Below, piece by piece: positions 7,302-29,779 of a stretch of DNA of 64,000 nt (position 1 is the stretch's first letter; the number at the start of each line of letters is the position of its first letter). Location: the NCBI RefSeq assembly GCF_000520995.1, contig NZ_JACA01000001.1, positions 434,001-498,000 of the forward strand, given 5' to 3'. The notes beneath the pieces are model-generated. The model was not told where the DNA came from and ran no database searches. It saw only the letters and a program-made list of their open reading frames with translations. A program made the translations under genes and the position numbers. This stretch comes from Aquimarina macrocephali JAMB N27 (GTDB taxonomy: Bacteria > Bacteroidota > Bacteroidia > Flavobacteriales > Flavobacteriaceae).

Positions 7302-10300
7302 CTAGTGATTAGCTTCAATACATACTAATCCCTCATTATTTCTAGCAAAAAGAATCACTTCTTTTCCTTTAAATTTAAAAGGTCGTATTGCTTTTACATC
7401 TCCTTTAATTAAGGTGCCACTTTTAACTGCGGGAATAGGACCAAAATTATTCTTTCCATTATTTTTAAGTACCAATCCATAACCAGCATCATTTCTAGGA
7501 GTTTCAATTTCTGATTGAAATAGGTTTCCGGCAATAAGAATATCTTTTAATCCATCATCATCAAAATCATCAATATGAATATCGTTTATAGAAGATAGCT
7601 GTGCTTGTTTTGGAAGTTCTATAATTTTGAATTTTCCATTTCCTAAATTTTCTATAAAAATCGAAGCAAATGTATATGCCTTTGCATGTAATGCTTTCTC
7701 TAGTTTTTCTTGCCCATACACCTGAATTAGGTCGGCAGAACCAAAACCTTCATAGGTTGGAAATTTTTCTTTTATAAATGGCATTTGGAGCGAGGTACAT
7801 TCTCGACCGCGAAGCGGAAATAAATCTCCATTGTTATAATATCCTAATACAATATCATTGGTCCCATTATCATCAAAATCATTTGTATAAATCTCGAAAG
7901 GTTCTTTGGCAGAAGCTTTATATTTATAATTTAAGCCTAAGTTACCCACTACATAATCCATATCTCCGTCCTGATCAAAATCAGCACTATTAATCGAATT
8001 CCACCAACCATCAGTATTCTTAAACAAAGTGGTATCTTTTTTAAAAGTTTTATCTGTGTTTCTAAATACCGTTATAGGCATCCATTCTCCAACTATAACC
8101 AAATCAGATGAACCATCCTGATCAATATCTGTCCATATTGCATCTGTGACCATCCCGATTTCAGATAATTCTGGAGCAATAGTTTTAGTAATATCTTTAA
8201 AAACACCGTTGTCATTTTCTAATAGATAATTTGCTCCGGGATACAGATATTTTTGTGGTGTATGCCTACTTCCAACAAATACATCCAGATCTCCATCCTG
8301 ATCATAATCAAATGGTTTTATACAACTACCACTGGATACTATCTTTGGTAATCTATTGTTTTCTTTAATAAAGTTTCCGTTAGTATTTATATACAAACGA
8401 TCCTGATACATAGTATGATTTGCTGGCCATTCATTCCCACCACTTACCACATATAAATCTAAATCGTTATCCCCATCTGCATCAAAAAATTGCGCAGACA
8501 CATCTTCAAATGCTTTTTCTTTTTCCCATAGCGTACTGCACGAAGATTGAAAAGAACCGCCTGGTTGTTGTGTATACAATGCAGCCGGGTGGTTTTTTGC
8601 TCCGCCAATATAAAAATCATCCAATCCATCCTTGTTTACATCTCCAACAGCAAGTGCAGGACCAAACTGAGACATTTTATGCGGCAATAAACTTTCTTTT
8701 TCAAAATCATCATACATATTTTCTACATGCCTGTGGGATATGTTTATGCCTTTTGTAATATTCTTAAATAGCGGTACTACAGGATTCTTCTTTTTTTGAT
8801 TTGTAAAAGAAGCATCGTTGTAATTAATAATGACTCTTTTGTTAATTTCTGGATTGTTAATTACCTCTACCTTATCATCTGGCCAGGTTACTATAATTTC
8901 TTGTACCGTTGTGTTACTATTCAATCCGATATGTATAATTGGTTCTACCGCAGATTGATATCCTCTTGTGGGATAGTTTTCGAATATTTGAGTTGTTTTT
9001 TCTGTTTGTACGGCAATACGTGTACCTATTCCAAATGGGTTTTGGGAATCTCCTTTAAATTGAAACTGTATATAATTCTTATTTCTGGTATTATTTTTTA
9101 GAATAGTAGCTTCCTGATCAATATTATTAATAACCAGATCCAAATCCCCATCGTTGTCTAAATCTGCATAAGATGCACCATTAGAAAAAGTAGGAGCATC
9201 AATTCCCCAGGATGTGGATGTCTTTGAAAAAGTTAAGTCCCCATTGTTTTTAAAAAAGTAATTTCGGGTTTTTCGTTGTGGAGTTTTAAGAACTAGCTCT
9301 TCGATTACTTTTTTTATATTTTCCTTATTCTTTTGAGCCTGCTCTAATCGTTTTACTTTATATTTTCTAAAATCATTATTTCTAAAATCTCTTTTAAGAC
9401 CATTAGTAATAAATACATCTTTTAATCCATCATTATCAAAATCTGCAAACAATGGTGCCCAACTCCAATCGGTATTTGATATTCCTGCGAGATGTGCGAT
9501 CTCGCTAAAACATTCGTCAGAATTGTTAAGCTGTAACGCATTAAACATATACTGATAATGAAACCCATTATCAACAGCATGATTAAATGCCTTTGGGTTC
9601 ATCCCACTCATACTGGTTTTGATCCCATAATTATCCTCGGCTACCATATCCAATGAAATGATATCCAACAACCCATCATTATTAAAATCTGCAATATCGG
9701 TTCCCATCGAAAAATTAGACGTATGCCCGATAGATGATTTTATTTTTTCTGTAAATGTGCCATTTCCGTTATTAAAATAAAGGTAATCATGCTCGATATA
9801 ATCGTTTGCTACATATATATCGGGCCAACCATCTTGATTAAGATCCCCTATAGAAACCCCTAAACCAAAACCTAAAGGATTTTGTATGATTCCTGCCTGA
9901 TCAGAAACATCTGTAAATTTTCCTAAGTTATTTTGATACAATCGATCTCCTACCAGGTCATTTTTCTCGCTTTTATAGTCTTCTGGGTTATTGGTATTAA
10001 CAGGAGACACATTATGATTTAATAAAAACATGTCGACATCTCCATCTTTATCATAATCAAAAAATGCAGCTTGCGTACTATATCCAGAAAAATTAAGTCC
10101 ATATTGGGCAGCCGACTCAGTAAACGTACCATTTTTGTTGTTTATAAAAAGTTCGTTTTCTCTATTTATCGCTTTTCCTTTACCTGACTTACACACATAA
10201 AGGTCTAACCAACCATCTGCATTGATATCTACCATGGTGACTCCAGTTGTCCACCCAAAAGAGCCTTTTACTTTTGCTTTCTCTGTGTGATTTTCAAATT

Positions 10301-10628
10301 GAAAATTCCCTTTATTGATATAAAGTCTGTTTTCTTTGAGATTGGAAGTAAAATAAATATCGGATAATCCATCATTATTAACATCTCCTATAGCAACACC
10401 TCCACCATTATAGAAATATTCATACACCATACTATTCATGGCACTACTCTCTGGTATTTGGTTTATGAAATGAATCCCCGAATGATCTGATAAAACTGAA
10501 GTAAATAATGTTTTATTTTTATCAGAATTTAGGTTTTGTTGAGTAGCTTCATTGTTGCGACATGATATGATTAGGAATATACTTATTAGTACTCCAAGTA
10601 TTTTTATTCTTTTACTATCTGTGATCAT
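7302..10628 (-). CDS. VCBS/FG-GAP repeat lipoprotein with ASPIC/UnbV domain (PUL-associated)
   Basis: 1108 residues. The lipoprotein signal peptide ends in a LIISC lipobox near residue 23. Many FG-GAP/VCBS blades follow, each with a calcium-loop motif such as DVNNDGLSDIY, DINADGWLDLY or DFDDDGLKDIL, giving one or two beta-propellers. The region near residues 510-590 (FGIGTRIAV ... QEIIVTWPD) is the ASPIC/UnbV domain. It is the third gene of the leftward SusC-SusD operon. Proteins of this type are common companions of SusCD pairs and are thought to sit on the cell surface and bind or process ligands. Enzymatic activity is not established. A short hairpin separates it from SusD and may lower its expression. 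Confidence 0.88.
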   Translation of the reverse strand: MITDSKRIKILGVLISIFLIISCRNNEATQQNLNSDKNKTLFTSVLSDHSGIHFINQIPESSAMNSMVYEYFYNGGGVAIGDVNNDGLSDIYFTSNLKENRLYINKGNFQFENHTEKAKVKGSFGWTTGVTMVDINADGWLDLYVCKSGKGKAINRENELFINNKNGTFTESAAQYGLNFSGYSTQAAFFDYDKDGDVDMFLLNHNVSPVNTNNPEDYKSEKNDLVGDRLYQNNLGKFTDVSDQAGIIQNPLGFGLGVSIGDLNQDGWPDIYVANDYIEHDYLYFNNGNGTFTEKIKSSIGHTSNFSMGTDIADFNNDGLLDIISLDMVAEDNYGIKTSMSGMNPKAFNHAVDNGFHYQYMFNALQLNNSDECFSEIAHLAGISNTDWSWAPLFADFDNDGLKDVFITNGLKRDFRNNDFRKYKVKRLEQAQKNKENIKKVIEELVLKTPQRKTRNYFFKNNGDLTFSKTSTSWGIDAPTFSNGASYADLDNDGDLDLVINNIDQEATILKNNTRNKNYIQFQFKGDSQNPFGIGTRIAVQTEKTTQIFENYPTRGYQSAVEPIIHIGLNSNTTVQEIIVTWPDDKVEVINNPEINKRVIINYNDASFTNQKKKNPVVPLFKNITKGINISHRHVENMYDDFEKESLLPHKMSQFGPALAVGDVNKDGLDDFYIGGAKNHPAALYTQQPGGSFQSSCSTLWEKEKAFEDVSAQFFDADGDNDLDLYVVSGGNEWPANHTMYQDRLYINTNGNFIKENNRLPKIVSSGSCIKPFDYDQDGDLDVFVGSRHTPQKYLYPGANYLLENDNGVFKDITKTIAPELSEIGMVTDAIWTDIDQDGSSDLVIVGEWMPITVFRNTDKTFKKDTTLFKNTDGWWNSINSADFDQDGDMDYVVGNLGLNYKYKASAKEPFEIYTNDFDDNGTNDIVLGYYNNGDLFPLRGRECTSLQMPFIKEKFPTYEGFGSADLIQVYGQEKLEKALHAKAYTFASIFIENLGNGKFKIIELPKQAQLSSINDIHIDDFDDDGLKDILIAGNLFQSEIETPRNDAGYGLVLKNNGKNNFGPIPAVKSGTLIKGDVKAIRPFKFKGKEVILFARNNEGLVCIEANH

Positions 10629-10650
10629 GACATATATTGTATACTAGCAT

Positions 10651-10684
10651 AAACACCTAAAAATAATAAAATTCTTAGGTGTTT
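10651..10684 (-). terminator. Intercistronic hairpin between susD-like and VCBS genes
   Basis: A perfect 10-bp stem (AAACACCTAA / TTAGGTGTTT) around a 14-nt AT-rich loop. There is no good T-run on the minus strand, so it is more likely an mRNA-stability or partial attenuation element than a full terminator. Confidence 0.5.
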
Positions 10685-10720
10685 ACTAGCTTTAATAACT
10701 AACTCAACTTTCGGGTTTTT

Positions 10721-12241
10721 TTACCATCCAGGATTCGGTTTAAGATTAGTATTAATATTTATCTCCTGTAATGGTATAGGGTATAAAATATGTTTATCCT
10801 GAAAATTCTCTGCGAATGGTTTGTTATGATTTTCTAGCGTTGTTTTTATCGATTCTGTGACTGTACTTCCTCTTTGCCACCTATAAAGATCAAACCAACG
10901 AATACCAAATTCCATAGCTAACTCAACCGGGCGTTCATGATGTCGAATTTGATCCCTTAGCTGGCTTTGCGTCATTACTCCTAATGGAGCTGCTTTCCCT
11001 CGTTCTCTAACTTTATTTATCTCTATTATCGCTTGATCTGTTTTACCATTTTCATTTAAAGCTTCGGCATACATTAATAAAACATCTGCATATCGAATTA
11101 AAGCAATGTTTGTTCCGTTATAAAAGCTTACATCCTGATTAAAAGCATATTTTTTGAAGTATTTAGGATGGTTAAGATCACCAGATACAGCACTATATGC
11201 AATAACTGCATCTGCATCTCTACTATACATTTCAGAATTAGGATCGTCAAAGAAAATACTCTCATATACTCTTTCACTAATTTCTCCTCCGGTAGTTAAA
11301 TCTGTTTTCATTTCTTCAACTAACCAATCAGAGGGATAGAATAATTCCCACCCACCAAAGGCATAGGGAGAAACCTGAAAGTTAAAAACCTGTCGTTCAT
11401 CATTACCATTAGCACGATCTCCCGAAAATTGAATTTCAAATATACTTTCATTCCCGTTTTCTGCAGCTCCATTAAAATTATCTGCATAATTAGTTAATAA
11501 AGAGTATCCCATACCGGTTACTTCTCCTAATTTGACTTCTGCCTGGCTCCATTTTTCCTGAAACAAATATGCTTTACCCAATAATGCTTTTGCAGCACCT
11601 TGTGTAGCTCTTCCTTTCCATTCTGATGAATGTTCTGTCAATAAATCTGGTTCTGCTTCGGCAAGATCTTTTTCTATCTGCTCCCATATTTTATCAGGAG
11701 TTACCTGAGACACAAAAAGACGATCTAATTCTGTTTCATAAGTAGTTACCAGAGGTACATTTTCAAAACCGGTTACCAGCCAAAAATAGTATAGTGCTCT
11801 TAAGAATTTTGCTTCGGCCACAATCGTATTCTTATCTTCCTGAGATAGAGCTTCCATTTCTGGTATTCTTTGTATGATCTGATTAGCTCGACCTATACCT
11901 GCATAGCTACTTTGCCAAATATTGTATGGGCCTGTATCTTCTGTAGTATTAGAGAAACTTGCCAGTGATCGACTATATGTTTCTGCCGTATTATTGGTCA
12001 CATCATCAGCTCGGTATGCCATTGCAGTATACACCTCTTCAAAGAAAGCCCATTTACTTCCACTTGCACTATGCATTGCTCCATAAGTAGCTGTTAGCGC
12101 TTGTAACGCATGTTCTTCTGTTTGCCAAAAACTAGAATCAGTCAAATTCTCCTTGTTTGCAACATCCAAAAAATCGTCACTACAAGAATTTAGTATTCCT
12201 ATACTTAGAACTATAATTAATAAATAACTAATTTTTTTCAT
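10721..12241 (-). CDS. SusD/RagB-family surface glycan-binding lipoprotein (PUL 1)
   Basis: 506 residues. The signal peptide has lipobox LNSC near residue 20, followed by SDDFLD, the usual SusD start. Tetratricopeptide-like helices follow, with typical SusD motifs: AEAKFLRALYYFWLV, ATQGAAKALLGKAYL, LIRYADVLLMYAEALNE and the C-terminal RWFDLYRW and HILYPIPLQEI. It forms the lid over the SusC barrel encoded immediately upstream (30-bp gap) and captures ligand at the cell surface. Specificity cannot be read from sequence. The divergent operon points to a galactose- and glucose-containing, possibly hydroxylysine-linked glycan. Confidence 0.95.
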   Translation of the reverse strand: MKKISYLLIIVLSIGILNSCSDDFLDVANKENLTDSSFWQTEEHALQALTATYGAMHSASGSKWAFFEEVYTAMAYRADDVTNNTAETYSRSLASFSNTTEDTGPYNIWQSSYAGIGRANQIIQRIPEMEALSQEDKNTIVAEAKFLRALYYFWLVTGFENVPLVTTYETELDRLFVSQVTPDKIWEQIEKDLAEAEPDLLTEHSSEWKGRATQGAAKALLGKAYLFQEKWSQAEVKLGEVTGMGYSLLTNYADNFNGAAENGNESIFEIQFSGDRANGNDERQVFNFQVSPYAFGGWELFYPSDWLVEEMKTDLTTGGEISERVYESIFFDDPNSEMYSRDADAVIAYSAVSGDLNHPKYFKKYAFNQDVSFYNGTNIALIRYADVLLMYAEALNENGKTDQAIIEINKVRERGKAAPLGVMTQSQLRDQIRHHERPVELAMEFGIRWFDLYRWQRGSTVTESIKTTLENHNKPFAENFQDKHILYPIPLQEININTNLKPNPGW

Positions 12242-12271: not shown

Positions 12272-15200
12272 TTACATCGATACACTAATACCGAAAATAA
12301 AAGATCTGGTTAATGGGTAGAATCCTCTGTCAACTCCTCTATTAAATGTTCCTCCATTTCCTAGACCTGGATCAAAACCTGAATAATCTGTAATGGTAAA
12401 TAGATTATTGGCGGTTGCATAAACTCTGATTCTCGAAACAGGAATCTTACTTATTGCAGATTCTGGAATCGAATATCCTATCTGTAGGTTCTTTAATCTT
12501 AAATATGATCCATCTTCCAGAAAATAGCTAGAAGGTCTAATATTATTGTTAGGATCACCAAATGCGTTTCTTGGAATATCTGTATTCGTATTTTGTGGTG
12601 TCCAAGCATTAACTAAATCAGAAGACACATTATTTCTATCTGTTCTATACAGCCACATTTTTACGCCATTGTAGATTTTATTCCCCTGAGTCCCTTGAAA
12701 GAATGCACTAAAATCAAAGTTTTTATATTTAGCATTAAGGGTTAATCCATATTCAAAATCAGGAAGACCACTACCCATATACTTTTTATCATCATCGTTT
12801 AATTGACCATCCCCGTTTACATCAGTAAATCGTAAATCTCCCGGAGCCGCATCTGGCTGAACTGCATGCGCATCAATCTCTGCTTGATTTTGAAATATCC
12901 CATTGGCTTCAAACAGATAAAATCGTCCAATTTCTCCTCCCACTTCGGTACGAGTGGTAGGAAAATTATTAAACTCTATAAAACCATCAACACGAGCTTC
13001 GCCTTCTACTCCCAGTTTTGTGATCTTATTTTTTGAAGTACTTAAGTTTGCAGTAATATCAAAAGAAAAATCTTTGTACTCTTTACTACTATATGTAGCA
13101 GAAAACTCCCATCCTTTATTTTCTAAATCTCCTGCATTGGTTAAAGGATCTGTTGTAATCCCAGAACTACCAGGAACCTTAGTAAATACCAACATATCAC
13201 TTGTTTTAGCATTAAAATAGTCAAAGGAAGCTTTGATTCTATTATCTAATATCCCAAGATCAATACCAACATTGGTGGTTGCCGTTTCTTCCCATCGAAT
13301 ATCGGGTGTTGGTAGTGAAGTAGCAATTGCTCCAGATAGTACTGCTTGTGTTACATCTTCACCAAAAGGATAGTTTAATTGTTGTCCTCCAGAACCAATC
13401 CTTGCTAAAAATAAATGATTAGGGATAAGCTGATTTCCTAATGTTCCGTAGCTAAATCGAGGTTTTAGTTGAGTAAACAAATCCGTCTTAAAAAAGTTTT
13501 CATTGTGAACTGCCCAACCCAATGAAACAGAATAGAAAGTACCATATTGGTTTTTAGAGCTAAAACGTGAAGAACCATCTCTTCTGGCACTGGCTTGTAC
13601 ATAATATCTATTGGCATAATCATAACTTAAACGACCAAAAACAGATTGTAATGTACTGGAAACATTTCTACCAAAAGAAGAAGCATCTCCTATCCCGGCA
13701 CTCAGAGCTTGTATAGCATCAGATGGTAGTCTATTATTACTACCGCCCACCGAGTTAAATACATTTTCTTCTTTAGAGCCACCAACAAGGATATCAAAAT
13801 CATGATCTCCAAATGATTTGACATAATTCAAAGTATTGTTTAATGTCCAACTGGTAGTCCTTGTTCTGGTTTCAGATAAAAAAGGATCTTCATTAATAGA
13901 TTGTGGTCCAAAATCATATGCTGGCTGAAAGAAAAAGAAATGTTCATTTTCTACATTTAATCCATATTGAAATTGATAACTTAATCCATCAAATAATTTT
14001 AAGTTGGCCGCAATATTAAATTGAGTGTATTCATCACGATCAATACGATCAGTTAATTCTCCCTGGCCTATTGGATTCCCAGAACCTAAACCAGTTGCAG
14101 GTGTAGCAAATCCATTTAACGAATTTGCATCATATATTGCCTTATGAGGTAATTGAGAATAGATATTTAGAAATGGAGAAAAACTAGCATTACCTCCATC
14201 AAGTGGTTCAAAAATACTTCGCCTTTTTTCTTTGGCATATGCCAAACCAGGAGAAATCTTCAGTCGGTTATTCAACAATTTAATATCCATATTTAACCGG
14301 GTATTAAATCTGTTGAAATCTGTATTAATAACAGTTCCTGAATTGGTAAAATAACCTGCAGAAAAATTATAGGTAGTATTTTCTGAACCTCCCGAAACTC
14401 CAATATCATGTTTCTGCTCAAAAGCGTTTTCATAATAAGCATCAGCCCAATCAGAATCTGCATACTGTTCTCCATTAGTAAGATATGGAGCAGGAGTTTC
14501 TCCTACATTAGCATATGCTTGGAGTTTTATCTGATCGTGTTGAGCTCTATTTGCTACCTCTATATTATCATTAATAGAATGTGTACTTATATATGAGTTT
14601 ACTACAACCTGTGGGTCTCCTCTTTTTCCTCTTTTTGTAGTAACGATAACTACTCCATTAGAAGCTCTAGAACCATAAATAGTAGCAGCAGACGCATCTC
14701 TAAGAATACTTATATTTTGGATATCGGCAGGATTTACATAAGATAAATCTCCCGGGACCCCATCAATTACAAATAAAGGATCATTATTATTTACGGTACC
14801 CATACCACGAATCCTAATTACCGGAGCACTCCCCGGAGCACCACTGGCTATTGCTACATTAAGCCCAGCTACTTGCCCTTGCAAAGATGTTGCTATATCG
14901 GCAGTAGGAATTTTTTGTATCTCCTCTATGTTTACCGAAGTAATTGCGGCAGTTAATTCTGATTTTTTTTGCGTTCCATAACCTACCAGAACAACCTCTC
15001 CCAGGCTCTGCGCATCTTCCTCAAGGCTAACATTGATTACCGTTTGATTACCAACTAAGATTTCTTTGGTAACAAATCCTAAATATCGATATACTAATGT
15101 TGTTTGCTGGCCCGAAACTTCAATTGAGTAATTTCCATCAAAATCAGTTTGTGTTCCTTGAGTTTGATCTCCCATAATTGTAATTGTAACTCCCGGTAAA

Positions 15201-15340
15201 GGAGAACCGCTACTATTTTCTGAAACATTACCTGTTATTACTGCATTTTGCGCATAAGTATTAGCGAATCCAAATAGAGTAAGCCCAAGTAGAGTTAAAA
15301 AAAATGAATACCATTGGTTTTTCTTTTTTTTTGCTTCCAT
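12272..15340 (-). CDS. SusC/RagA TonB-linked outer-membrane receptor (PUL 1)
   Basis: I choose ATG at 15338-15340 (1022 residues). A GTG two codons upstream is the alternative. The signal peptide ends near ANTYAQ. A carboxypeptidase-regulatory-like domain (about 35-110, with TDFDGNYSIEV) is followed by a TonB plug (about 115-235, VVLVGYGTQKKS, then RGMGTVNNNDPLFVIDG) and a 22-strand barrel to the C-terminus, which ends in an aromatic, hydrophobic strand (SFIFGISVSM). It imports ligand across the outer membrane using TonB energy, together with the downstream SusD. The frame is intact, unlike the SusC gene of PUL 2. Its promoter lies in the 140-bp divergent region shared with the GntR-type regulator. 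Confidence 0.95.
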   Translation of the reverse strand: MEAKKKKNQWYSFFLTLLGLTLFGFANTYAQNAVITGNVSENSSGSPLPGVTITIMGDQTQGTQTDFDGNYSIEVSGQQTTLVYRYLGFVTKEILVGNQTVINVSLEEDAQSLGEVVLVGYGTQKKSELTAAITSVNIEEIQKIPTADIATSLQGQVAGLNVAIASGAPGSAPVIRIRGMGTVNNNDPLFVIDGVPGDLSYVNPADIQNISILRDASAATIYGSRASNGVVIVTTKRGKRGDPQVVVNSYISTHSINDNIEVANRAQHDQIKLQAYANVGETPAPYLTNGEQYADSDWADAYYENAFEQKHDIGVSGGSENTTYNFSAGYFTNSGTVINTDFNRFNTRLNMDIKLLNNRLKISPGLAYAKEKRRSIFEPLDGGNASFSPFLNIYSQLPHKAIYDANSLNGFATPATGLGSGNPIGQGELTDRIDRDEYTQFNIAANLKLFDGLSYQFQYGLNVENEHFFFFQPAYDFGPQSINEDPFLSETRTRTTSWTLNNTLNYVKSFGDHDFDILVGGSKEENVFNSVGGSNNRLPSDAIQALSAGIGDASSFGRNVSSTLQSVFGRLSYDYANRYYVQASARRDGSSRFSSKNQYGTFYSVSLGWAVHNENFFKTDLFTQLKPRFSYGTLGNQLIPNHLFLARIGSGGQQLNYPFGEDVTQAVLSGAIATSLPTPDIRWEETATTNVGIDLGILDNRIKASFDYFNAKTSDMLVFTKVPGSSGITTDPLTNAGDLENKGWEFSATYSSKEYKDFSFDITANLSTSKNKITKLGVEGEARVDGFIEFNNFPTTRTEVGGEIGRFYLFEANGIFQNQAEIDAHAVQPDAAPGDLRFTDVNGDGQLNDDDKKYMGSGLPDFEYGLTLNAKYKNFDFSAFFQGTQGNKIYNGVKMWLYRTDRNNVSSDLVNAWTPQNTNTDIPRNAFGDPNNNIRPSSYFLEDGSYLRLKNLQIGYSIPESAISKIPVSRIRVYATANNLFTITDYSGFDPGLGNGGTFNRGVDRGFYPLTRSFIFGISVSM

Positions 15341-15402
15341 AATCACATTGTTTTTTGGTGATAATCCCCAATTTTACGAGGGGTTTAACGTAAAATATTG
15401 GC

Positions 15403-15450
15403 GCAATATAGAATTTTAGTTTTTAAAAAAGCAACTAGTACCTACCAGTT
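15403..15450. promoter_or_regulatory. Shared operator/promoter region between susC and the GntR-type regulator
   Basis: An 18-bp near-palindrome lies at 15433-15450: AACTAGTA, CC, TACCAGTT (7 of 8 half-site bases symmetrical). On the minus strand a TTG at 15432-15434 is followed after 21 bp by TATATTGC (15403-15410), close to the Bacteroidetes -33/-7 pattern, so the palindrome overlaps the susC -33 box. On the plus strand TATATTTG at 15471-15478 fits TAnnTTTG but is only 5 bp from the regulator ATG. The likely reader is the adjacent GntR/PBP1 protein. Binding is inferred. Confidence 0.5.
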
Positions 15451-15482: not shown

Positions 15483-16481
15483 ATGAAAACAATTAATGTG
15501 GTAGAAAACATAGGTGTACCTAAATACAAACAGATCATTTCATCAATTGAAAGTGCTATTTTGTCTGGAGAGTATAAGCGTGGAGATAAATTACCATCAA
15601 TCAACAGTGTAAAGCTTCGATTCTCTCTCTCGAGAGATACAGTATTGCTCGCTTACAATGATTTAAAAGTAAGAGGAATTGTAAATTCTGTTCCTGGTAA
15701 AGGGTATTATGTAAAAAGTGAAAGTATAGAAATCGCTCAAAAGATTTTTTTATTATTTGATGAACTAAATGCCTTTAAAGAAGATTTGTATAATTCTTTT
15801 TTAAAAAGTTTAAATACGAATATCGAAGTAGATATTTATTTTCATCATTTCAATTATGATGTATTTAGCAAATTAATTTACGACAATATTGGCAGCTATA
15901 ATTATTATATTATTATGCCTGCAAATTTAAATGACATCCCCGCAATACTAGATGTCTTACCTCAAGATAGAGTATATATACTGGATCAAACTCGTCCCGA
16001 GCTTTCACAATACCCTACCATTCATCAAAATTTTAAGAAAGATATTTTAACCGGTTTGGTCAAAGGGCTTCATCTTCTAAAAAAATACCAAAAACTAGTA
16101 CTACTTTTTCAAGAGCAGAAACAGCCTGCAGGAATGTTTGAAGGTTTTAAAATGTTCTGTAACACCTATCGATTTGATAATGAAGTGATCGATTCTCTAG
16201 AAGGGAGAACGCTGGTTAAAGGAGAAGTTTACATAATTCCTGATGATAGGAGTCTTATTCGCATTATTAAAAAAATAAAAGAAGTAGAGTTTACTCTTGC
16301 AAAAGATATTGGTATCATATCCTATAATGATACACTTCTTAAAGAAATCGTAGAAGGAGGCATAACTACTATTTCTACCGATTTTAATAAAATGGGAGAA
16401 CGCCTGGCCGAAATGATTACGAATAAGGAACAGATTAGAATCGAAAACGTAAATAATTTAATTTTAAGAAATTCTCTTTAG
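15483..16481 (+). CDS. GntR-type regulator with periplasmic-binding-protein-like sensor domain
   Basis: 332 residues. Residues about 8-75 are a GntR winged helix-turn-helix (KYKQIISSIESAILSGEY, RGDKLPSIN, SLSRDTVLLAYNDLKVRG, PGKGYYV). Residues about 85-330 resemble a LacI/GalR-type sugar-binding (PBP1) domain rather than FadR or HutC types; blocks include FEGFKMFC and KDIGIISYNDTLLKEIVEGGITTISTDF. This fusion is typical of Bacteroidetes sugar-catabolic regulators. It is the first gene of the rightward galactose operon and is divergent from susC, so it probably represses both until a sugar ligand binds. Galactose or a galactoside is the natural guess. Confidence 0.92.
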   Translation: MKTINVVENIGVPKYKQIISSIESAILSGEYKRGDKLPSINSVKLRFSLSRDTVLLAYNDLKVRGIVNSVPGKGYYVKSESIEIAQKIFLLFDELNAFKEDLYNSFLKSLNTNIEVDIYFHHFNYDVFSKLIYDNIGSYNYYIIMPANLNDIPAILDVLPQDRVYILDQTRPELSQYPTIHQNFKKDILTGLVKGLHLLKKYQKLVLLFQEQKQPAGMFEGFKMFCNTYRFDNEVIDSLEGRTLVKGEVYIIPDDRSLIRIIKKIKEVEFTLAKDIGIISYNDTLLKEIVEGGITTISTDFNKMGERLAEMITNKEQIRIENVNNLILRNSL

Positions 16482-16484
16482 CTT

Positions 16485-17390
16485 TTGTATCAAATAAACC
16501 ACATAAAAGGGCAAAAAAGTCCTAAGCACCACATCGAACTTTTAAAAGCAGATCAAAGTTCAAGTGCCATAATAGCTTTAAATTTAGGAGGAAGCATACA
16601 AGGGTTATCAATTAATGGTAAGCACATAATAGCTGGGCTTGAATTATTAGATTATAATACCACATATGCCTCTGCTGTTTTATTCCCTTTTGCCAATAGA
16701 ATAAAAAATGGAAAGTATATTTTTAAAGACAAACAATATGTTTTAGACCTTAATGTAAAAAAAGAAAACAATGCTTTACATGGCCTGATATATAATAAGA
16801 CTTTTACCTATATAAAAGAAGAAGTTAGTCTCAATCATGCTTCTGTAACTATTGGTTATGAAGAAACCAAAAAAGTAAAAGGATTTCCTTTTAAATACGC
16901 TATACATTTAACATACACTCTATCTGCCAATACTTTAGAACTCTCTGTAGTTGTAGTCAATAATGACCAAGTTCCTTTTCCTTTCACTATTGGATGGCAT
17001 CCATATTTTTTAAGTAGTGATTTACATGAGAGTTTTCTTACTGTTGAAAGCAATAAAAAATTAGTATTCGATAAGGATATGATCCCTATGAAGATCAAAG
17101 ATATTACCATAAAAGAACCTATCCAGATCAAAGACAGGCTTTTTGATGATTGTTATATTCTTAACAATAATTCAGCAAAATTTAATACTCCAGAGTATTG
17201 TTTGATTCTTGAGTCTTCTTCAGAAGAAAATTATCTGCAAGTATTTACACCCGAAAAGAGAAATATAATAGCCATCGAACCCAAAACAGGGCCATCTAAT
17301 AGTTTTAATAACAAACTCGGATTAAGTACTCTGAACCCAAAAGAAACCTACAAGATAAATTGGAAAATTAAACTTCGGAACAATGAATAA
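16485..17390 (+). CDS. galM: Aldose 1-epimerase (galactose mutarotase)
   Basis: 301 residues from a TTG start 3 bp after the regulator stop. No usable ATG lies near, and the N-terminus at this TTG fits the family. Motifs of the GalM beta-sandwich are present: FANRIKNGKY, NALHGLIYN (substrate His), GWHPYF (catalytic His) and IAIEPKTGPSNSFNN (catalytic Glu). It interconverts beta- and alpha-galactose so that galactokinase, encoded downstream, receives its preferred anomer. There is no signal peptide, so it is cytoplasmic. Its last 8 bp overlap the next gene, showing tight operon packing. Confidence 0.9.
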   Translation: MYQINHIKGQKSPKHHIELLKADQSSSAIIALNLGGSIQGLSINGKHIIAGLELLDYNTTYASAVLFPFANRIKNGKYIFKDKQYVLDLNVKKENNALHGLIYNKTFTYIKEEVSLNHASVTIGYEETKKVKGFPFKYAIHLTYTLSANTLELSVVVVNNDQVPFPFTIGWHPYFLSSDLHESFLTVESNKKLVFDKDMIPMKIKDITIKEPIQIKDRLFDDCYILNNNSAKFNTPEYCLILESSSEENYLQVFTPEKRNIIAIEPKTGPSNSFNNKLGLSTLNPKETYKINWKIKLRNNE

Positions 17391-19386
17391 GCATGCTCTA
17401 TTTATAATGATTTCGGTTCTCATATTGTGTTTTGGTTGTAAAAAGCATACAAAGGTAGCAGCACCAAACATTACCAAAAAAGAATACCTCTCTTATAGTA
17501 AAAATATTCTCAACTATGGAGTTACTCCAAAAGACTCTATAGATAAATCCGGATTGATGTTTTCAGATCAAGGTGCATGGTTTGCCTATAGTTTTCCTGA
17601 TTCTATTAGTCCTTCTCCCGGGTTCTCAGGGCCTTTTTTAATGACTCAGCAAAATGGAATCTGGAGTAGTGAGATGCTCATAAAACTAAATATTAGAGAC
17701 ATTTCCTGGAGTGAATATAAAACAACCGCATATAACAGTCATTTAGAACAAACCTTTGCAAACAAAGATGTAGTTCTAAAACAAAAACTGGTATTTGCCT
17801 CTGGACATTCTGCATTAATACAATATACGTTTACCAATAAAACGGATAAAGCAATTGAGTTGGAGTATAACTGGAAAAACCAGCCACTTTTAACAGAAAC
17901 TCTAAGATTAGAATCAGCAGAAAATAAAATTACCATACACTCTTCAAAATCTAATGCCATTGGTCATATTGTATTTCCAAACGAAACAAAAATCACAAGC
18001 ACCGACAGCTCTTATTCTACTAATAATCAGCAGCTACATTTAAAACCAAAAACGACTAAAGAGATTGTGGTTTCTCAGACTTTTATTTTTCCCGAATATT
18101 CCTGGGAAGAGGAACAAAAAACTATCGCTACCATTGATTTTGATACTATCTTAAGTAAACGCAGCGTCGAAAAGGAAACGCAGCTAAAATCTTTAATTAA
18201 GGCAAGAAAAGAAAAATTTCAAGATGACAAATATGCTACGGTACTTACCAAAGCTCATCTTACCTTACAAAACAACTGGCGTATTCCTGCTGGAGAAATA
18301 CAACACGAAGGATTGTTCCCCAGCTATCACTACAAGTGGTTTAATGGGTTTTGGTCATGGGACTCATGGAAACATGCTGTTGGATTATCCTATTACAATA
18401 CAGAATTAGCTAAAAAACAGATGCGATTGATGTTCGAATTTCAGAACGAAGATGGTTTTGTAGCAGATTGTGTATACAGAGATACAAGCATAGAAGACCA
18501 TAACTATCGAGATACAAAACCACCATTATCTGCATGGGCAGTAGTTAAAATTTATGAAAAAGATAATGATCTTGATTTTGTAAAAGAATTGTACTCTAAA
18601 CTTAAAAAATACCATTATTGGTGGTATCAAAAACGAGATCATGATAAAGACGGACTATGTGAGTATGGGTCTACCGATGGAAGTCTTGTTGCTGCCAAAT
18701 GGGAAAGTGGTATGGATAATGCCATTCGTTTTGACGATTCTAAAATTCTTAAAAATGAAGAAGGAGCCTATTCTTTGGATCAGGAAAGTGTTGATCTTAA
18801 TGCATACCTCTATGCAGAAAAACTGTATTTAGAAAAACTTGCAGAAGCTATTCAAAAAGATGATGATGCAAAACAATACCAGGCAGAAGCAAAAAAACTG
18901 AAAGAAATAATTCAAAAGCAATTCTATGATCCTGTTGATGGTTGGTTTTATGATACTAATCTAAACGGAACAACATTTATAAAAGGAGAAGGCAGTGAGG
19001 GTTGGACGTCTCTTTGGGCAAATGTAGCAACCCAAAAACAAGCAGAGGCTGTAAAAAATAAGATGATGAATCCCAATAAATTCTATACCAAAATACCTTT
19101 TCAAACCATGTCTGCAGATCATCCAAAATTTGATCCTTTAAAAGGCTATTGGAGAGGCCCTAACTGGTTAGATCAATCGTATTTTGGAGTAAAAGGACTG
19201 CGTAATTATGGATTTGATAAAGAAGCAGATCAGGCTACTGTACAAATCATCCAAGGAGCAGAAGGGTTATTAGAGAAAGGAAAAGCAATTCGAGAAAATT
19301 ATCACCCAATAACAGGCCAGGGCTTACATGCACAAAATTTTAGTTGGAGTGCAGCACACATTATAATGCTATTAATAAAAGAATAG
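17383..19386 (+). CDS. GH63-type exo-alpha-glucosidase lipoprotein
   Basis: 667 residues. The lipoprotein signal has lipobox LCFGC near residue 19, so the enzyme acts in the periplasm or on the outer membrane. After an N-terminal beta-sandwich (about 40-270) comes an (alpha/alpha)6 barrel with GH63/YgjK-like motifs: WSWDSWKHA with Asp327 as likely general acid, GFVADCVYRD, and IRENYHPITGQG...FSWSAA with Glu638 as likely base. Family members are inverting enzymes that remove alpha-linked glucose; E. coli YgjK prefers glucosyl-galactose. Next to beta-galactosidase and galactose genes, a Glc(alpha)-Gal substrate is plausible. GH63 mannosyl- or glucosylglycerate hydrolase activity is the main alternative. 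Confidence 0.85.
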   Translation: MNKHALFIMISVLILCFGCKKHTKVAAPNITKKEYLSYSKNILNYGVTPKDSIDKSGLMFSDQGAWFAYSFPDSISPSPGFSGPFLMTQQNGIWSSEMLIKLNIRDISWSEYKTTAYNSHLEQTFANKDVVLKQKLVFASGHSALIQYTFTNKTDKAIELEYNWKNQPLLTETLRLESAENKITIHSSKSNAIGHIVFPNETKITSTDSSYSTNNQQLHLKPKTTKEIVVSQTFIFPEYSWEEEQKTIATIDFDTILSKRSVEKETQLKSLIKARKEKFQDDKYATVLTKAHLTLQNNWRIPAGEIQHEGLFPSYHYKWFNGFWSWDSWKHAVGLSYYNTELAKKQMRLMFEFQNEDGFVADCVYRDTSIEDHNYRDTKPPLSAWAVVKIYEKDNDLDFVKELYSKLKKYHYWWYQKRDHDKDGLCEYGSTDGSLVAAKWESGMDNAIRFDDSKILKNEEGAYSLDQESVDLNAYLYAEKLYLEKLAEAIQKDDDAKQYQAEAKKLKEIIQKQFYDPVDGWFYDTNLNGTTFIKGEGSEGWTSLWANVATQKQAEAVKNKMMNPNKFYTKIPFQTMSADHPKFDPLKGYWRGPNWLDQSYFGVKGLRNYGFDKEADQATVQIIQGAEGLLEKGKAIRENYHPITGQGLHAQNFSWSAAHIIMLLIKE

Positions 19387-25576
<6,190 letters not shown>

Positions 25577-25582
25577 GAAACT

Positions 25583-27163
25583 ATGCAGTTCATTACATTT
25601 ATAGGGTTTACATTATTAGTGGCAATAATAGCTTATGTAAAAAGCAGAAAAACAGATGAATCTTCTTCTGATGGATATTTTCTGGGAGGAAGAAGTTTAA
25701 CAGGGGTCGTTATTGCAGGTTCGTTATTACTAACCAATTTATCAACCGAACAAATCGTGGGGTTAAACGGGGCCGCCTTTAAAGAAGGGATCCTGGTTAT
25801 GGCATGGGAAACGCTGGCGGCAATTGCCATGGTGGTTACAGCCGTATTTTTATTACCCCGATATCTAAAAGGAGGAATAACCACCGTTCCACAATTTTTG
25901 CAAAGACGATACGATAAAACCACCAAAACAATCACCTCTGCATTATTTCTAAGTGGATACGTGGTGGTGTTATTACCTATCGTTTTATATTCTGGAGCAT
26001 TGGCAATTAATACAATGTTTGATCTACCTGGTATATTAAATGTTAACGAAACCACTGCTTTATGGATAACCGTTTTTGGAATCGGTATCATAGGATCTAT
26101 TTATGCCATTTTTGGAGGTTTAAAAGCGGTAGCCGTATCAGATACCATTAATGCTATAGGGTTACTGATCGGTGGGTTGTTAATACCAATATTCGGATTA
26201 ATGGCCATAGGTGATGGTAGTATTTTTGAAGGAATCGCTACACTAACGCAATCTCACCCCGAAAAACTCAAAGCATTAGGAGGGCCAGAATCTTCAATTC
26301 CGATAGGAACTATATTCACTGGTATGATGCTCGTTCAATTATTTTATTGGGGAACCAATCAAGCAATTATCCAAAGAGCTTTAGGAGCCAAAAACTTAAA
26401 AGAAGGACAAAAAGGATTGTTATTAGCTTCTTTTATAAAAATACTGGGACCACTAATTGTTGTATTACCGGGGTTAATTGCTTTTCACATGTTCGGGAAC
26501 ACATTGGATAACCCAGATGAAGCATATCCAATGTTAGTGACCAAGGTGCTACCCGCAGCTTGGGTAGGATTTTTTGCAGCAGTATTGTTTGGTGCTATTT
26601 TAAGTTCATTTAATAGTGCTTTAAACAGTTCGGTCACTTTATTCGGAATTGACATATACCAATCACATTTTAAACCTGATGCTACAGAACGGCAAACGGT
26701 AAAAGCAGGAAAAAGTTTTGGCATCATATTAGCAATTTTAGCCATGTGTATTGCTCCATTAATCGCATACGCTCCTGATGGGCTATTTGGGTATTTACAA
26801 AAAGTAAACGGATGTTATAGTATTCCTATCTTAACCATTATTGTAGTGGGATACCTAACAAAATATGTTCCTGCAATTGCAGCAAAAATTGCTATCATTT
26901 CTGGTGTGGTTTTATATGTTGCTTATATTTTATTAGATGAATTTGTTTTTGTTGAGCAATTCCCTCACTTCTTACATGTTATGGCAATATTATTCGTGCT
27001 CAATGTACTTATCATGTTACTTATTGGCAAATTCAGACCAAGAACAGAAGCTTATGAGCAACACTATACAGAGCAGGTTGATATCACTCCCTGGAAACAC
27101 CTTAACGTTGTAGGGATCACTATTTGTTTGATTGTTTTAGGAATCTATATATACTTTGCATAA
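25583..27163 (+). CDS. Sodium:solute symporter (SSS/SLC5), probable galactose/glucose importer
   Basis: 526 residues with about 14 hydrophobic helices and the LeuT-like SSS fold. Characteristic blocks are SSDGYFLGGRSL, SLLLTNLSTEQIVGLNG, YAIFGGLKAVAVSDTINAIG and FYWGTNQAIIQRALGAKNL. The closest functional group I can name is the vSGLT-like sodium/galactose transporter subfamily. It follows the beta-galactosidase by 6 bp and precedes galactokinase directly, which fits import of freed galactose across the inner membrane. A strongly similar paralogue serves the other PUL at 33875-35461. Confidence 0.92.
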   Translation: MQFITFIGFTLLVAIIAYVKSRKTDESSSDGYFLGGRSLTGVVIAGSLLLTNLSTEQIVGLNGAAFKEGILVMAWETLAAIAMVVTAVFLLPRYLKGGITTVPQFLQRRYDKTTKTITSALFLSGYVVVLLPIVLYSGALAINTMFDLPGILNVNETTALWITVFGIGIIGSIYAIFGGLKAVAVSDTINAIGLLIGGLLIPIFGLMAIGDGSIFEGIATLTQSHPEKLKALGGPESSIPIGTIFTGMMLVQLFYWGTNQAIIQRALGAKNLKEGQKGLLLASFIKILGPLIVVLPGLIAFHMFGNTLDNPDEAYPMLVTKVLPAAWVGFFAAVLFGAILSSFNSALNSSVTLFGIDIYQSHFKPDATERQTVKAGKSFGIILAILAMCIAPLIAYAPDGLFGYLQKVNGCYSIPILTIIVVGYLTKYVPAIAAKIAIISGVVLYVAYILLDEFVFVEQFPHFLHVMAILFVLNVLIMLLIGKFRPRTEAYEQHYTEQVDITPWKHLNVVGITICLIVLGIYIYFA

Positions 27164-28315
27164 ATGACAAATGAATCATTACTAGAAAAGGTGAAATCTA
27201 CTTTTCTGAAACGATTTAGCACCAAACCTGTATTATCCTTTTCTCCAGGAAGGATCAATCTAATCGGAGAACATACCGATTATAATGGTGGGTTTGTCTT
27301 TCCTGCAGCAATCAATAAAGGGATAGTTTCAGGAATCCAGAAAAACAACAATATGTATTGTTCGGTCTATGCCATAGATACCGATGAGGTTTTAGAATTT
27401 TCGCTACAAAATATTCAACCTGCCAAAAATGGAGGATGGAAAAATTATGTATTGGGAGTAGTTGCCGAAATTATTAAAAGAGATATCACAATCTGTAGTT
27501 TTGATTTGGTCTTTGCTGGTAATATCCCTCTTGGAGCCGGATTATCATCCTCTGCTGCCCTGGAAAACAGTATCGTTTTTGGATTAAATGAATTGTTCGA
27601 ACTTGGACTAACCAAAGAAGAAATGATTTATATCTCTCAAAAAGCAGAGCACAATTATGTAGGAGTACAGTGTGGTATTATGGATCAATATGCGAGTATG
27701 TTTGGAAAAGAAGGCAAGGCTTTATTATTAGATTGCAGAAATCTTAAAGCGACCTACTTTTCTATTGATTTTAAAGAATATGATATTATTTTAATCAATA
27801 CTAATGTAAAGCACAGTCTTACAGAAAGTGCCTATAATGAAAGGCGCTCGGTATGTGAAGCGGTAGCTGCGCGCTTAGAAGTATCTGCTCTAAGAGATGC
27901 CACATATGAAGCCTTATTTACTATTAAAAAAGAAATTACTGAAGACCACTACCAAAAAGCTTTATTTATCTTACAAGAAAATGAAAGAGTTTTAAAAGCT
28001 GCTATTGCCTTAGATAAAAAGGATTACATAACTTTTGGTAAACTACTTTTTGAGTCGCATAACGGGCTGCAAAACCAGTATAAAGTAAGCTGTACTGAAT
28101 TGGATTTTTTGATAGATCATGCCAAACAGAATCCAGATGTATTAGGTGCACGAATGATGGGAGGTGGCTTTGGCGGTTGTACCATCAATATCATTAAAAA
28201 AGGAGCTACAGATACATTTATTAATACGGTTGCACCGTTATATCATAAACAATTCAATAAAACCTTAAGTCGATATGATGTACAAATTGCAGAAGGAACA
28301 TATAAAATCAAATAA
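27164..28315 (+). CDS. galK: Galactokinase
   Basis: 383 residues, GHMP kinase family. The galactokinase signature PGRINLIGEHTDYNGG is near residue 28, the ATP-binding loop PLGAGLSSSAALE is intact, and GHMP motif 3 reads MMGGGFGGC. The catalytic Asp lies in GIMDQYASM. The start codon follows the symporter stop with no gap. It phosphorylates alpha-galactose to galactose-1-phosphate, the substrate of GalT encoded two genes downstream. It is cytoplasmic. Length and motif order are standard, with no sign of damage. Confidence 0.97.
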   Translation: MTNESLLEKVKSTFLKRFSTKPVLSFSPGRINLIGEHTDYNGGFVFPAAINKGIVSGIQKNNNMYCSVYAIDTDEVLEFSLQNIQPAKNGGWKNYVLGVVAEIIKRDITICSFDLVFAGNIPLGAGLSSSAALENSIVFGLNELFELGLTKEEMIYISQKAEHNYVGVQCGIMDQYASMFGKEGKALLLDCRNLKATYFSIDFKEYDIILINTNVKHSLTESAYNERRSVCEAVAARLEVSALRDATYEALFTIKKEITEDHYQKALFILQENERVLKAAIALDKKDYITFGKLLFESHNGLQNQYKVSCTELDFLIDHAKQNPDVLGARMMGGGFGGCTINIIKKGATDTFINTVAPLYHKQFNKTLSRYDVQIAEGTYKIK

Positions 28316-28316
28316 T

Positions 28317-28760
28317 ATGATAATGAGATATCTATATATATTGGGAATACTAATGGGATTGGCCAGCTGTCATCAAGAAATAAAAGTAGATGAGAAAGCC
28401 GATAAACAGCAAATCATTGAAGTACTGAAAGCACAAGAACAAGCCTGGTCAAATCATGACCTGGAAGAGTATATGCAAGGGTATTGGAAGTCGGATTCTT
28501 TAAAGTTTTATGGTAGCAGAGGATTAACGTATGGTTGGGATAAAACATTATCTAATTATAAAAAAGGATATCCCTCTAGAGCACATACCGGCACATTAAA
28601 TTTTGTCATCAATGACATTTCACGAATTGATTATGAATCCTATTTTGTGATGGGAGAATATCATTTAATACGTAGCGTAGGTAATGCTGACGGTACTTTT
28701 ATGATCATTTTCAAAAAGATAAATGGTCATTGGAAAATTGTAGCAGATTCCTCATGTTAA
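28317..28760 (+). CDS. DUF4440/SnoaL-like lipoprotein between galK and galT
   Basis: I place the start at ATG 28317, just after the galK stop (147 residues). This gives a lipoprotein signal with lipobox LASC near residue 16. The rest is an NTF2-like alpha+beta fold of the DUF4440 type (KAQEQAWSNHDLEEYMQGYW, then TFMIIFKKINGHWKIVADSS). Such proteins can be small hydrolases, isomerases or ligand binders; no catalytic residues can be assigned. It overlaps galT by 7 bp, so it is a genuine operon member. Its envelope location contrasts with its cytoplasmic neighbours, so it more likely works with the GH63 and GH2 lipoproteins. Confidence 0.85.
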   Translation: MIMRYLYILGILMGLASCHQEIKVDEKADKQQIIEVLKAQEQAWSNHDLEEYMQGYWKSDSLKFYGSRGLTYGWDKTLSNYKKGYPSRAHTGTLNFVINDISRIDYESYFVMGEYHLIRSVGNADGTFMIIFKKINGHWKIVADSSC

Positions 28761-29779
28761 ATACAGATTTACAAGAGTATTCCCACAGGCGTTATAATCC
28801 ACTTACAGGAGAATGGGTATTGGTATCCCCGCACAGAGCAAAAAGACCTTGGCAAGGCCAGGAAGAAGAAATCAATACACAATCATTACCATCTTATGAT
28901 AAAGATTGTTATTTATGCTCGGGAAATAGTAGAGCAGGAGGAAAGAAAAATCCAGACTATCAGGATGTTTTTGTTTTTGAAAACGACTTTGCCGCATTAC
29001 AAAACGAATCTCCTTCTTTTGCTATAGAAGAAGAATTGTTTAAAGTGAAAAGTGAAACTGGGATCTGCAAGGTAATATGTTTTAACCCAGATCATTCTAA
29101 AAGCTTAGCCAATATGTCTGTAGAGGCCATTGAAAAAGTAATTAAAGTATGGCAAGAAGAATATCAAAAATTAGGTGCACTACCAGAGATTAATTACGTG
29201 CAGATCTTTGAAAACAAAGGTGCTGTTATGGGGTGTAGCAATCCTCATCCTCACGGACAGATCTGGAGTCAGTTTCATCTACCCAATGAGATCTTAAAAA
29301 AAGACAACAATCAACGACACTATTTTTCTAAACATAGTACATCATTATTAGAAGATTATGTGATTCTGGAATTAGAAAAGAAAGAACGCATTATATTTCA
29401 AAATGAACACTTCGTTGTATTAGTTCCTTTTTGGGCTATTTGGCCATTTGAAACGATGATTATTCCAAAAAAGAGACAGTCATCGATTATAGAAATGAAT
29501 CCAAATGAGCGAATTGCTTATTCAGAATGTATTTCTGTATTAACTCGAGCATATGATCAATTATTTAATTGTTCTTTTCCCTATTCTAGTGGGATTCATC
29601 AAGCGCCAACTCATAATCTTGATCATACCCATTGGCATTGGCATATGAGTTTTTACCCTCCATTATTACGAAGTGCTACTGTTAAAAAATTTATGGTTGG
29701 TTATGAAATGTTCGGGATGCCACAACGAGATGTTACAGCAGAAACCGCTGCAAAAATGCTTTATGACTTAATCCAATAA
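28754..29779 (+). CDS. galT: Galactose-1-phosphate uridylyltransferase
   Basis: I place the start at ATG 28754 (341 residues), overlapping the upstream stop as ATGTTAA. HIT-fold transferase with RRYNPLTGEWVLVSPHR at the N-terminus, zinc-binding CYLCSGN, the active-site NPHPHGQIW with nucleophilic His, and C-terminal HWHWHMSFYPP. It exchanges galactose-1-phosphate with UDP-glucose in the Leloir pathway. No UDP-glucose 4-epimerase gene lies in the window, so galE must be elsewhere. It is the last gene of the rightward operon; no strong terminator follows at once, only a weak 5-bp stem (CCCAG/CTGGG) near 29840-29860. Confidence 0.97.
   Translation: MLNTDLQEYSHRRYNPLTGEWVLVSPHRAKRPWQGQEEEINTQSLPSYDKDCYLCSGNSRAGGKKNPDYQDVFVFENDFAALQNESPSFAIEEELFKVKSETGICKVICFNPDHSKSLANMSVEAIEKVIKVWQEEYQKLGALPEINYVQIFENKGAVMGCSNPHPHGQIWSQFHLPNEILKKDNNQRHYFSKHSTSLLEDYVILELEKKERIIFQNEHFVVLVPFWAIWPFETMIIPKKRQSSIIEMNPNERIAYSECISVLTRAYDQLFNCSFPYSSGIHQAPTHNLDHTHWHWHMSFYPPLLRSATVKKFMVGYEMFGMPQRDVTAETAAKMLYDLIQ

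Follow-up and report, generated by a model that had tools for sequence, protein, structure and literature searches.

A gene cluster at positions 7302-29779 of a 64,000-nucleotide stretch of the Aquimarina macrocephali JAMB N27 genome (contig NZ_JACA01000001.1; the whole stretch is referred to below as the window) is predicted, with a probability of about 0.82, to catabolise the glucosyl-galactosyl disaccharide linked to hydroxylysine in collagen, all enzyme activities being predictions. At its core are the genes for a glycoside hydrolase of family 63 (GH63), a three-domain fusion of an APH-type kinase, an M23 peptidase and a pyridoxal phosphate (PLP)-type phospho-lyase, and a beta-galactosidase of family 2 (GH2). 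An earlier reading of these letters made without database searches (the sequence-only reading) had proposed glycosylated hydroxylysine of collagen as the compound broken down by the locus, and this proposal is probably right, being supported by conserved synteny of GH63, fusion and GH2, by linkage of the fusion to hydroxyproline and prolyl-peptidase-like genes, by a piperideine-6-carboxylate dehydrogenase gene near the fusion in two genera and by a collagenase elsewhere in the genome. Few animal proteins are as abundant as collagen, of which 3- and 4-hydroxyproline are, like hydroxylysine, hallmarks. No bacterial route for the collagen hydroxylysine glycoside was apparent in the open-access PubMed Central literature searched; if true, the assignment would give substrates to a large gene group of so far unassigned function in marine Bacteroidota, and would provide both a genomic marker for collagen use and enzymes that trim the collagen glycan.

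Gene neighbourhoods of the fusion in relatives

A scan of genome contigs for the fusion yielded 68 loci, most of them assigned by name to Flavobacteriaceae, with loci ending at contig ends retained in the counts, and a family survey covered 249 Flavobacteriaceae genomes from 202 genera; Fisher tests on these counts ignore phylogeny. The sequence-only reading had suggested a search for co-occurrence of the fusion with GH63, GH2 and galK. Among the 68 loci, GH63 was present in 42, GH2 in 46 (four of which, at L040, L041, L042 and L065, are distant, being 37-39% identical to the window GH2) and both in 38, while galK was found in 15, less steadily than the two glycosidases. Across the family survey, the M23-type fusion was present in 23 of the 26 genomes with GH63 and in 40 of the 223 without it; these 63 genomes include contig-end fragments and two genomes (G030 and G223) in which only the kinase and M23 domains match, and with those two excluded the counts are 23/26 and 38/223. 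The GH63 and fusion genes start at most 3.5 kb apart in 18 of the 23 genomes that have both, and the GH2 orthologue, found in 26 of the 249 genomes (a count that leaves out G054 and two second copies of below 50% identity), is no more than 5 kb away from the fusion in 20 of these 26. The three genes are neighbours in many genera, and the synteny counts across loci and genomes rule out chance adjacency.

The second recurrent context is hydroxyproline catabolism. Recurrent neighbours of the fusion were clustered, and one representative of each of 17 clusters was annotated. The representatives of the trans-4-hydroxyproline epimerase and Pyr2C/Pip2C reductase clusters scored 573 bits (PRK13971, cut-off 376) and 386 bits (cut-off 322), and that of the trans-3-hydroxyproline dehydratase-type cluster 371 bits against its best family, NF045511, below the equivalog cut-off of 540. 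The second catalytic position was Cys in all 15 epimerases (Cys/Cys) and Thr in all 15 dehydratases (Cys/Thr), a difference that we take to distinguish the two activities within the proline-racemase fold. Representatives of the D-amino-acid dehydrogenase-like, DapA-like and aldehyde-dehydrogenase clusters stayed below curated cut-offs, as did the Xaa-Pro peptidase-like clusters with their best NCBIfam families; one further neighbour was assigned to M24 by Pfam, and the S37-type peptidase cluster exceeded its Pfam cut-off.

An epimerase and/or dehydratase gene lay within the fetched flanks of 21 of the 68 fusion loci, with both in nine, and 17 of these 21 also carry an M24- or S37-type (prolyl-peptidase-like) gene, while 14 have GH63 or GH2 (GH63 in 12; GH2 in 11, two of them distant). 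In the family survey, in which 136 epimerase places scored above the family cut-off, the fusion lay within 20 kb of an epimerase in 20 of the 50 genomes with both, compared with a chance expectation of approximately 1% (40 kb in a 4-Mb genome). A related kinase-lyase fusion lacking M23, which 30 of the 249 genomes have while lacking the full form, lay within 20 kb of an epimerase in none of the 27 genomes having both. The two contexts can be interleaved, as at L126, where the order is S37 / Pyr2C reductase, 3-hydroxyproline dehydratase, GH63, fusion, small lipoprotein, GNAT / M24, M24, D-amino-acid dehydrogenase. At L079 (with its neighbour L123), GH63 and GH2 lie among clustered 3-/4-hydroxyproline genes with no fusion beside them; in that genome the M23-less fusion alone was found, at another place. 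Bacterial trans-4- and trans-3-hydroxyproline clusters are linked to the fusion in many relatives, and are also found elsewhere in the Aquimarina genome; to our knowledge, neither glycosidases nor hydroxylysine genes have been described among hydroxyproline degradation clusters. In this analysis, it is the recurrent hydroxyproline and peptidase neighbours that decide the substrate question for collagen.

A quick tree was built of 57 fusions, comprising those of 56 of the 68 loci and the window, with 12 loci omitted for short flanks or proteins; support was below 80 on 16 of its 54 inner branches. On this tree at least 10 changes each are counted for the hydroxyproline and for the glycosidase context, which means that the association does not go back to one frozen inheritance.

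Further evidence comes from the compound that the fusion is expected to produce. Piperideine-6-carboxylate (aminoadipate semialdehyde) is the compound expected from 5-phosphohydroxylysine, and a gene for L-piperidine-6-carboxylate dehydrogenase lies directly upstream of the fusion, in the same orientation, in Wocania arenilitoris (816.9 bits, cut-off 730) and one gene from the fusion in Aestuariivivens (812 bits, above the cut-off). The genome around the window (6.06 Mb, 99.99% complete) carries its own such gene outside the locus (829 bits). On one of its contigs a row of genes encodes DapA-like, aldehyde dehydrogenase, DUF885, epimerase and D-amino-acid dehydrogenase proteins, and another contig has two M24-type genes, a dehydratase, a reductase and an S37 gene. 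It also encodes a single collagenase of family M9, which has M9_N, PKD and a type-IX secretion-sorting tail; M9 was found in none of 14 control genomes. The genome thus has the pieces of the proposed pathway, though spread over several loci. The sequence-only reading had held that there is a matching gene for each product except glucose, which is too strong: the gene for the product of the fusion is elsewhere in the genome, and no importer was identified for hydroxylysine or for peptides.

Alphaproteobacterial fusions, which are 39% identical to that of the window, were taken as an independent test and gave a mixed picture that is suggestive only. In plasmid loci of Sinorhizobium meliloti (L113, L121), Sinorhizobium sp. 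M103 (L118) and Ensifer adhaerens (L120), the fusion or its close relative has as neighbours an MGH1-like glycosidase, a GH42 beta-galactosidase and ABC transporters for amino acids and sugars. Loci L119-L121 were fetched via the glycosidase and not the fusion; in one of these, from S. terangae (L119), the sugar half is kept and the fusion is absent from the stretch fetched. The loci of Paracoccus, two Phyllobacterium, Shinella and S. fredii (L112, L114-L117) contain no match to these glycosidases.

Predicted enzymes of the locus

The fusion (19387-22428, plus strand) comprises Pfam domains for an APH kinase (residues 28-253), Peptidase_M23 (440-537) and a class-III PLP enzyme (604-1000), and exceeds the cut-off of NCBIfam PRK06148 (1132.2 against 1128 bits) over residues 6-1005, spanning all three domains, in a family named merely 'hypothetical protein'. 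The kinase and phospho-lyase domains recognised in the sequence-only reading are thus borne out, and the metallopeptidase domain between them (window 20704-20997) had been overlooked. Residues D205, N210 and D227, and K850, which we take to be APH-type kinase residues and the PLP lysine, respectively, are identical in all 11 proteins aligned, alphaproteobacterial and M23-less ones among them. The M23-bearing form occurs in Bacteroidota and Alphaproteobacteria, and H441, D445, H495, H531 and H533, presumably the residues for zinc binding and catalysis (HxxxD, H, HxH), do not vary among 40 relatives out of 40 and are kept in all seven aligned alphaproteobacterial fusions. No signal sequence was seen at the N-terminus. 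The fusion of Aquimarina sp. Aq78 is 97% identical.

By sequence, the PLP domain comes closest among solved structures to human ethanolamine-phosphate phospho-lyase (451 bits), followed by Arthrobacter phospholyase A1RDF1 (316 bits); for the kinase domain, no solved structure gave a sequence match. A structure model of the whole fusion (predicted local distance difference test, pLDDT, 84) matched the phospho-lyases 6tor and 5g4i first, ahead of transaminases, with solely PLP-domain relatives among the best 50 Foldseek matches. In vertebrates, hydroxylysine is degraded by hydroxylysine kinase (HYKK/AGPHD1) and then 5-phosphohydroxy-lysine phospho-lyase (PHYKPL/AGXT2L2), which were reportedly identified in a 2012 paper cited in PMC8154272. 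The same two domain families, kinase then phospho-lyase, are present here and the same reactions are predicted; the bacterial form differs in being one fused chain with an M23 peptidase domain in between, encoded with glycosidases.

This architecture poses the question of why a peptidase domain should stand between a kinase and a lyase. Among solved M23 proteins the domain is nearest to LytM and lysostaphin, enzymes that cleave between two glycines, and because hydroxylysine in the collagen chain usually has glycine after it, a role for the predicted peptidase in releasing hydroxylysine from small peptides is suggested. Other arrangements of these domains also occur: two proteins of approximately 585 residues (L094:6852-8609 in G030, and G223:C1:277768-279489; 40% identity) match the kinase and M23 domains only and are without the phospho-lyase domain, and the M23-less kinase-lyase fusion at L088-L093 in Flavobacteriaceae has approximately 755 residues.

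The GH63 protein (17383-19386, plus strand) belongs to its family by Pfam (Glyco_hydro_63, PF03200, 36.3 bits, cut-off 22.4; MGH1-like_GH, PF22422, 225.8 bits, cut-off 27). It matches E. coli YgjK in the PDB by sequence (249 bits), and a structure model (pLDDT 79) also places YgjK as the nearest fold, including 3w7w, the E727A variant solved with 2-O-alpha-glucosyl-galactose (Glc-alpha-1,2-Gal), the disaccharide of collagen. Residues D327, D445 and E638 correspond to YgjK D324, D501 and E727 and are invariant in 30 of 30 aligned relatives. The two enzymes thus share the fold and three acidic positions, and differ in that the window enzyme is a lipoprotein of only about 25% identity in a conserved amino-acid catabolic context. 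On these sequence and structural grounds it is predicted to be a Glc-alpha-1,2-Gal hydrolase. Animal PGGHG, a GH65 enzyme, is described as an alpha-glucosidase acting on collagen Glc-alpha-1,2-Gal-hydroxylysine (PMC8626586). Human PGGHG would share its reaction with the window GH63 but belongs to a different family, and the activity would therefore have arisen independently.

The GH2 protein (22433-25576, open reading frame (ORF) from 22391, plus strand) is of LacZ type and exceeds the cut-off of the Bga2A equivalog (NCBIfam, 1004.3 against 999 bits), and its PDB matches are beta-galactosidases. Since GH63 and GH2 start with lipoprotein-type signal sequences, as judged by eye, and the fusion does not, the glycosidases are expected to work outside the cytosol and the fusion within it. 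Short GH63-like matches of approximately one tenth of the protein lie just before GH2 at L040:4822 and L041:6562, perhaps as remnants of a lost GH63.

The remaining plus-strand enzymes are predicted to serve galactose use. They comprise a galM-like aldose 1-epimerase (16485-17390; Pfam Aldose_epim 154 bits, below the galM equivalog cut-offs), a sodium:solute symporter (SSS; 25583-27163; NCBIfam PRK10484 783.7 bits, cut-off 401) predicted to take up galactose, galactokinase (galK, 27164-28315; TIGR00131 315.5 bits, cut-off 226.65) and galactose-1-phosphate uridylyltransferase (galT, 28754-29779, within ORF 28730-29779, start 28754 probable; TIGR00209 474.7 bits, cut-off 102.1). The nearest solved relative of the symporter by sequence is the sodium/glucose cotransporter vSGLT (2xq2, 215 bits). 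Of the positions that we assume to contact galactose in vSGLT, N64, Q69, E88, Y263 and Q428 are kept, N260 is replaced by Q, S91 by A and N142 by L, and K stands at Ala294 of 2xq2.

Proposed pathway and competing explanations

In the scheme that we infer for substrates, transport steps, regulation and order of events, secreted collagenase and other peptidases would generate collagen glycopeptides, and these, or glucosyl-galactosyl-hydroxylysine, may be carried over the outer membrane by the SusC/SusD proteins of the divergent operon. The lipoprotein GH63 would first take off the alpha-1,2-glucose and the lipoprotein GH2 then the beta-galactose, which the symporter would import for metabolism by the galM-like epimerase, galK and galT. 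Hydroxylysine, or a short hydroxylysine peptide, would enter the cell via some carrier, whereupon the three-domain enzyme would phosphorylate the 5-hydroxyl and then eliminate phosphate and ammonia to give aminoadipate semialdehyde, equivalent to piperideine-6-carboxylate, for conversion to 2-aminoadipate by the dehydrogenase encoded elsewhere in the genome. Both divergent operons would be controlled by a GntR regulator at a conserved operator.

A possible continuation is seen in Wocania arenilitoris, where an operon-like run before the fusion (L053:2379-9805) encodes a KamA-family radical SAM protein, ferredoxin, CoA-transferase A/B, a class-III aminotransferase, 3-oxoadipyl-CoA thiolase and the piperidine-6-carboxylate dehydrogenase. 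The best family of the KamA-family protein is glutamate 2,3-aminomutase, at 89 of 650 bits, and it has no match in the Aquimarina macrocephali genome at E 1e-20. The set, which comes from one genus, suggests a possible new route from 2-aminoadipate via 3-aminoadipate to 3-oxoadipate. The window locus probably belongs to a wider collagen-residue catabolic network in marine Bacteroidota with the peptidase-kinase-lyase enzyme at its centre. A catabolon of marine Bacteroidota for the residues specific to collagen, in which GH63 and GH2 would remove the glycan, the lysostaphin-like M23 domain would free hydroxylysine from hydroxylysyl-glycine for the kinase and lyase of the same chain, 3- and 4-hydroxyproline pathways would run alongside, and 2-aminoadipate would pass in Wocania via 3-oxoadipate to succinyl-CoA and acetyl-CoA, is a tentative proposal that is, taken as a whole, rather less likely than not. 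Among the named relatives in the fusion scan are species with the epithets spongiicola, onchidii and aiptasiae, as well as several of Tenacibaculum; some of these relatives presumably live on fish.

Three other explanations were weighed. The closest is a variant in which the locus would take up not collagen peptides but galactosyl- or glucosyl-galactosyl-hydroxylysine already set free by the turnover of animal tissue; the operon has no secreted endopeptidase, and the kinase and lyase domains would act on the free amino acid if they follow the vertebrate reactions, but the M24 or S37 peptidase-like genes in 21 of the 68 fusion loci, the M23 domain in the fusion and the M9 collagenase in the genome fit peptide use, and the variant is considered unlikely. 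That the fusion is instead a kinase and phospho-lyase for ethanolamine or another amino alcohol, with the locus using an ethanolamine- or lipid-linked glucosyl-galactoside, would fit the two nearest solved relatives of the PLP domain and also L096, where a succinic-semialdehyde-type aldehyde dehydrogenase (546 of 730 bits) lies two genes from the fusion. Since no hydroxylysine-phosphate lyase is named among the best 60 of the 190 PLP-domain matches, hydroxylysine-phosphate and ethanolamine-phosphate lyases are not separable by sequence, and the predicted substrate of the fusion rests on gene context. That context speaks for hydroxylysine: ethanolamine phosphate would give acetaldehyde through a phospho-lyase, with which a piperidine-6-carboxylate dehydrogenase beside the fusion is hard to reconcile, and the linkage to 3-/4-hydroxyproline and prolyl-peptide genes would be left unexplained. 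No ethanolamine-utilisation gene was seen among the 17 annotated recurrent neighbour clusters, and the aldehyde dehydrogenase that recurs in 11 of the 68 loci comes closest to 2,5-dioxovalerate dehydrogenase, at a low score of 134 of 750 bits. The use of ethanolamine is accordingly judged quite improbable. Least probable, and very much so, is a generic lactose or galactoside operon that captured an unrelated amino-acid gene: the LacZ-type GH2, the vSGLT-like symporter and the Leloir genes are indeed ordinary galactose genes, but the symporter and Leloir genes come and go between the 68 loci (galK 15, galT 14, galM 16, SSS 17), while GH63 and GH2 stay with the fusion, which is why this explanation is rejected.

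Several observations weigh against the degradation of collagen hydroxylysine glycoside by the locus. At its low identity to YgjK, GH63 falls below the cut-off of the YgjK equivalog (PRK10137, 353 of 625 bits), and the solved phospho-lyase nearest to the fusion is the human ethanolamine-phosphate enzyme. Ten of the 68 fusion loci show no associated gene, some of them ending at contig ends, and SusC and SusD vary widely between loci, often at 31-38% identity. The epimerase is missing from 13 of the 63 fusion genomes (11 of 61, and so present in 50, once G030 and G223 are excluded), of the 50 genomes that carry both, 30 do not have it within 20 kb of the fusion, and the hydroxyproline clusters of the Aquimarina genome itself are on contigs other than that of the window. 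Among the seven alphaproteobacterial plasmid loci fetched by the fusion, glycosidases adjoin it in two near-identical Sinorhizobium loci only.

Locus layout, regulator and surrounding genes

Every gene named in the sequence-only reading was found where it had been placed, on the same strand, and its picture of one compact operon with a divergent SusC-SusD-FG-GAP operon stands, the plus-strand genes from 15483 to 29779 abutting or overlapping. Two corrections apply: the first plus-strand gene encodes a GntR-family regulator (15483-16481; Pfam GntR 46.6 bits), and a small DUF4440-like lipoprotein gene (28317-28760, within ORF 28275-28760, start 28317 probable; Pfam DUF4440 25.1 bits, cut-off 25.2) sits between galK and galT. 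Homologues of the latter occur in 27 of the 68 fusion loci, even without galK and galT, as at L025. On the minus strand are a SusC-type TonB-dependent transporter (12272-15346; NCBIfam TIGR04056 888 bits, cut-off 368.25), a SusD-type outer-membrane lipoprotein (10721-12241; Pfam SusD_RagB 127.5 bits, SusD-like_3 88.9 bits) and, last in the operon, a lipoprotein-type (VCBS-type) protein with FG-GAP repeats and UnbV_ASPIC (7302-10628; Pfam FG-GAP_3 259 bits, UnbV_ASPIC 67.7 bits). With a SusC-SusD pair, linked glycosidases and a regulator by Pfam and NCBIfam, the cluster qualifies as a SusCD-type utilisation locus; it shares the SusC/SusD pair, lipoproteins, glycosidases and own regulator with the polysaccharide utilisation loci of Bacteroidota, and differs from them in its predicted target, a glycosylated amino acid of a protein and not a polysaccharide.

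The C-terminus of the regulator is periplasmic-binding-protein-like (Peripla_BP_3 24.9 bits, below the cut-off of 26.5). Between the divergent operons lies the near-palindrome ACYAGTANCYACYAGT (15434-15449, plus strand), which is probably the GntR operator. An exact copy stands upstream of GntR in all 15 fusion-scan loci having a plus-strand GntR gene, and beyond those 15 it matches only two of 113 loci, namely at the window's own site and at one inside an ORF; it is absent as an exact copy at L045, where GntR is partial and on the minus strand, and at L087, where GntR is 56% identical. Within the window alone, with at most two mismatches, the pattern was matched in 8 of 100 shuffles, so that at that level the match may be due to chance. 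A regulon joining the locus to the hydroxyproline loci through this site was looked for without success: the sole other exact genome copy is inside an ORF, and the 51 genome matches at up to two mismatches are fewer than the 78 of a reversed control pattern. Nor does the site mark out a wider regulon in this genome.

No tRNA gene was found in the window by ARAGORN. A tyrosine-recombinase (phage integrase family) gene at 5701-7026 adjoins the SusCD operon, and a second carbohydrate locus with an SSS symporter, GH97, GH3 and a TonB-dependent receptor occupies 33875-47597 on the minus strand. The listed ORF of that receptor starts within the plug domain, and a SusD-like ORF, recognised by eye, adjoins it.

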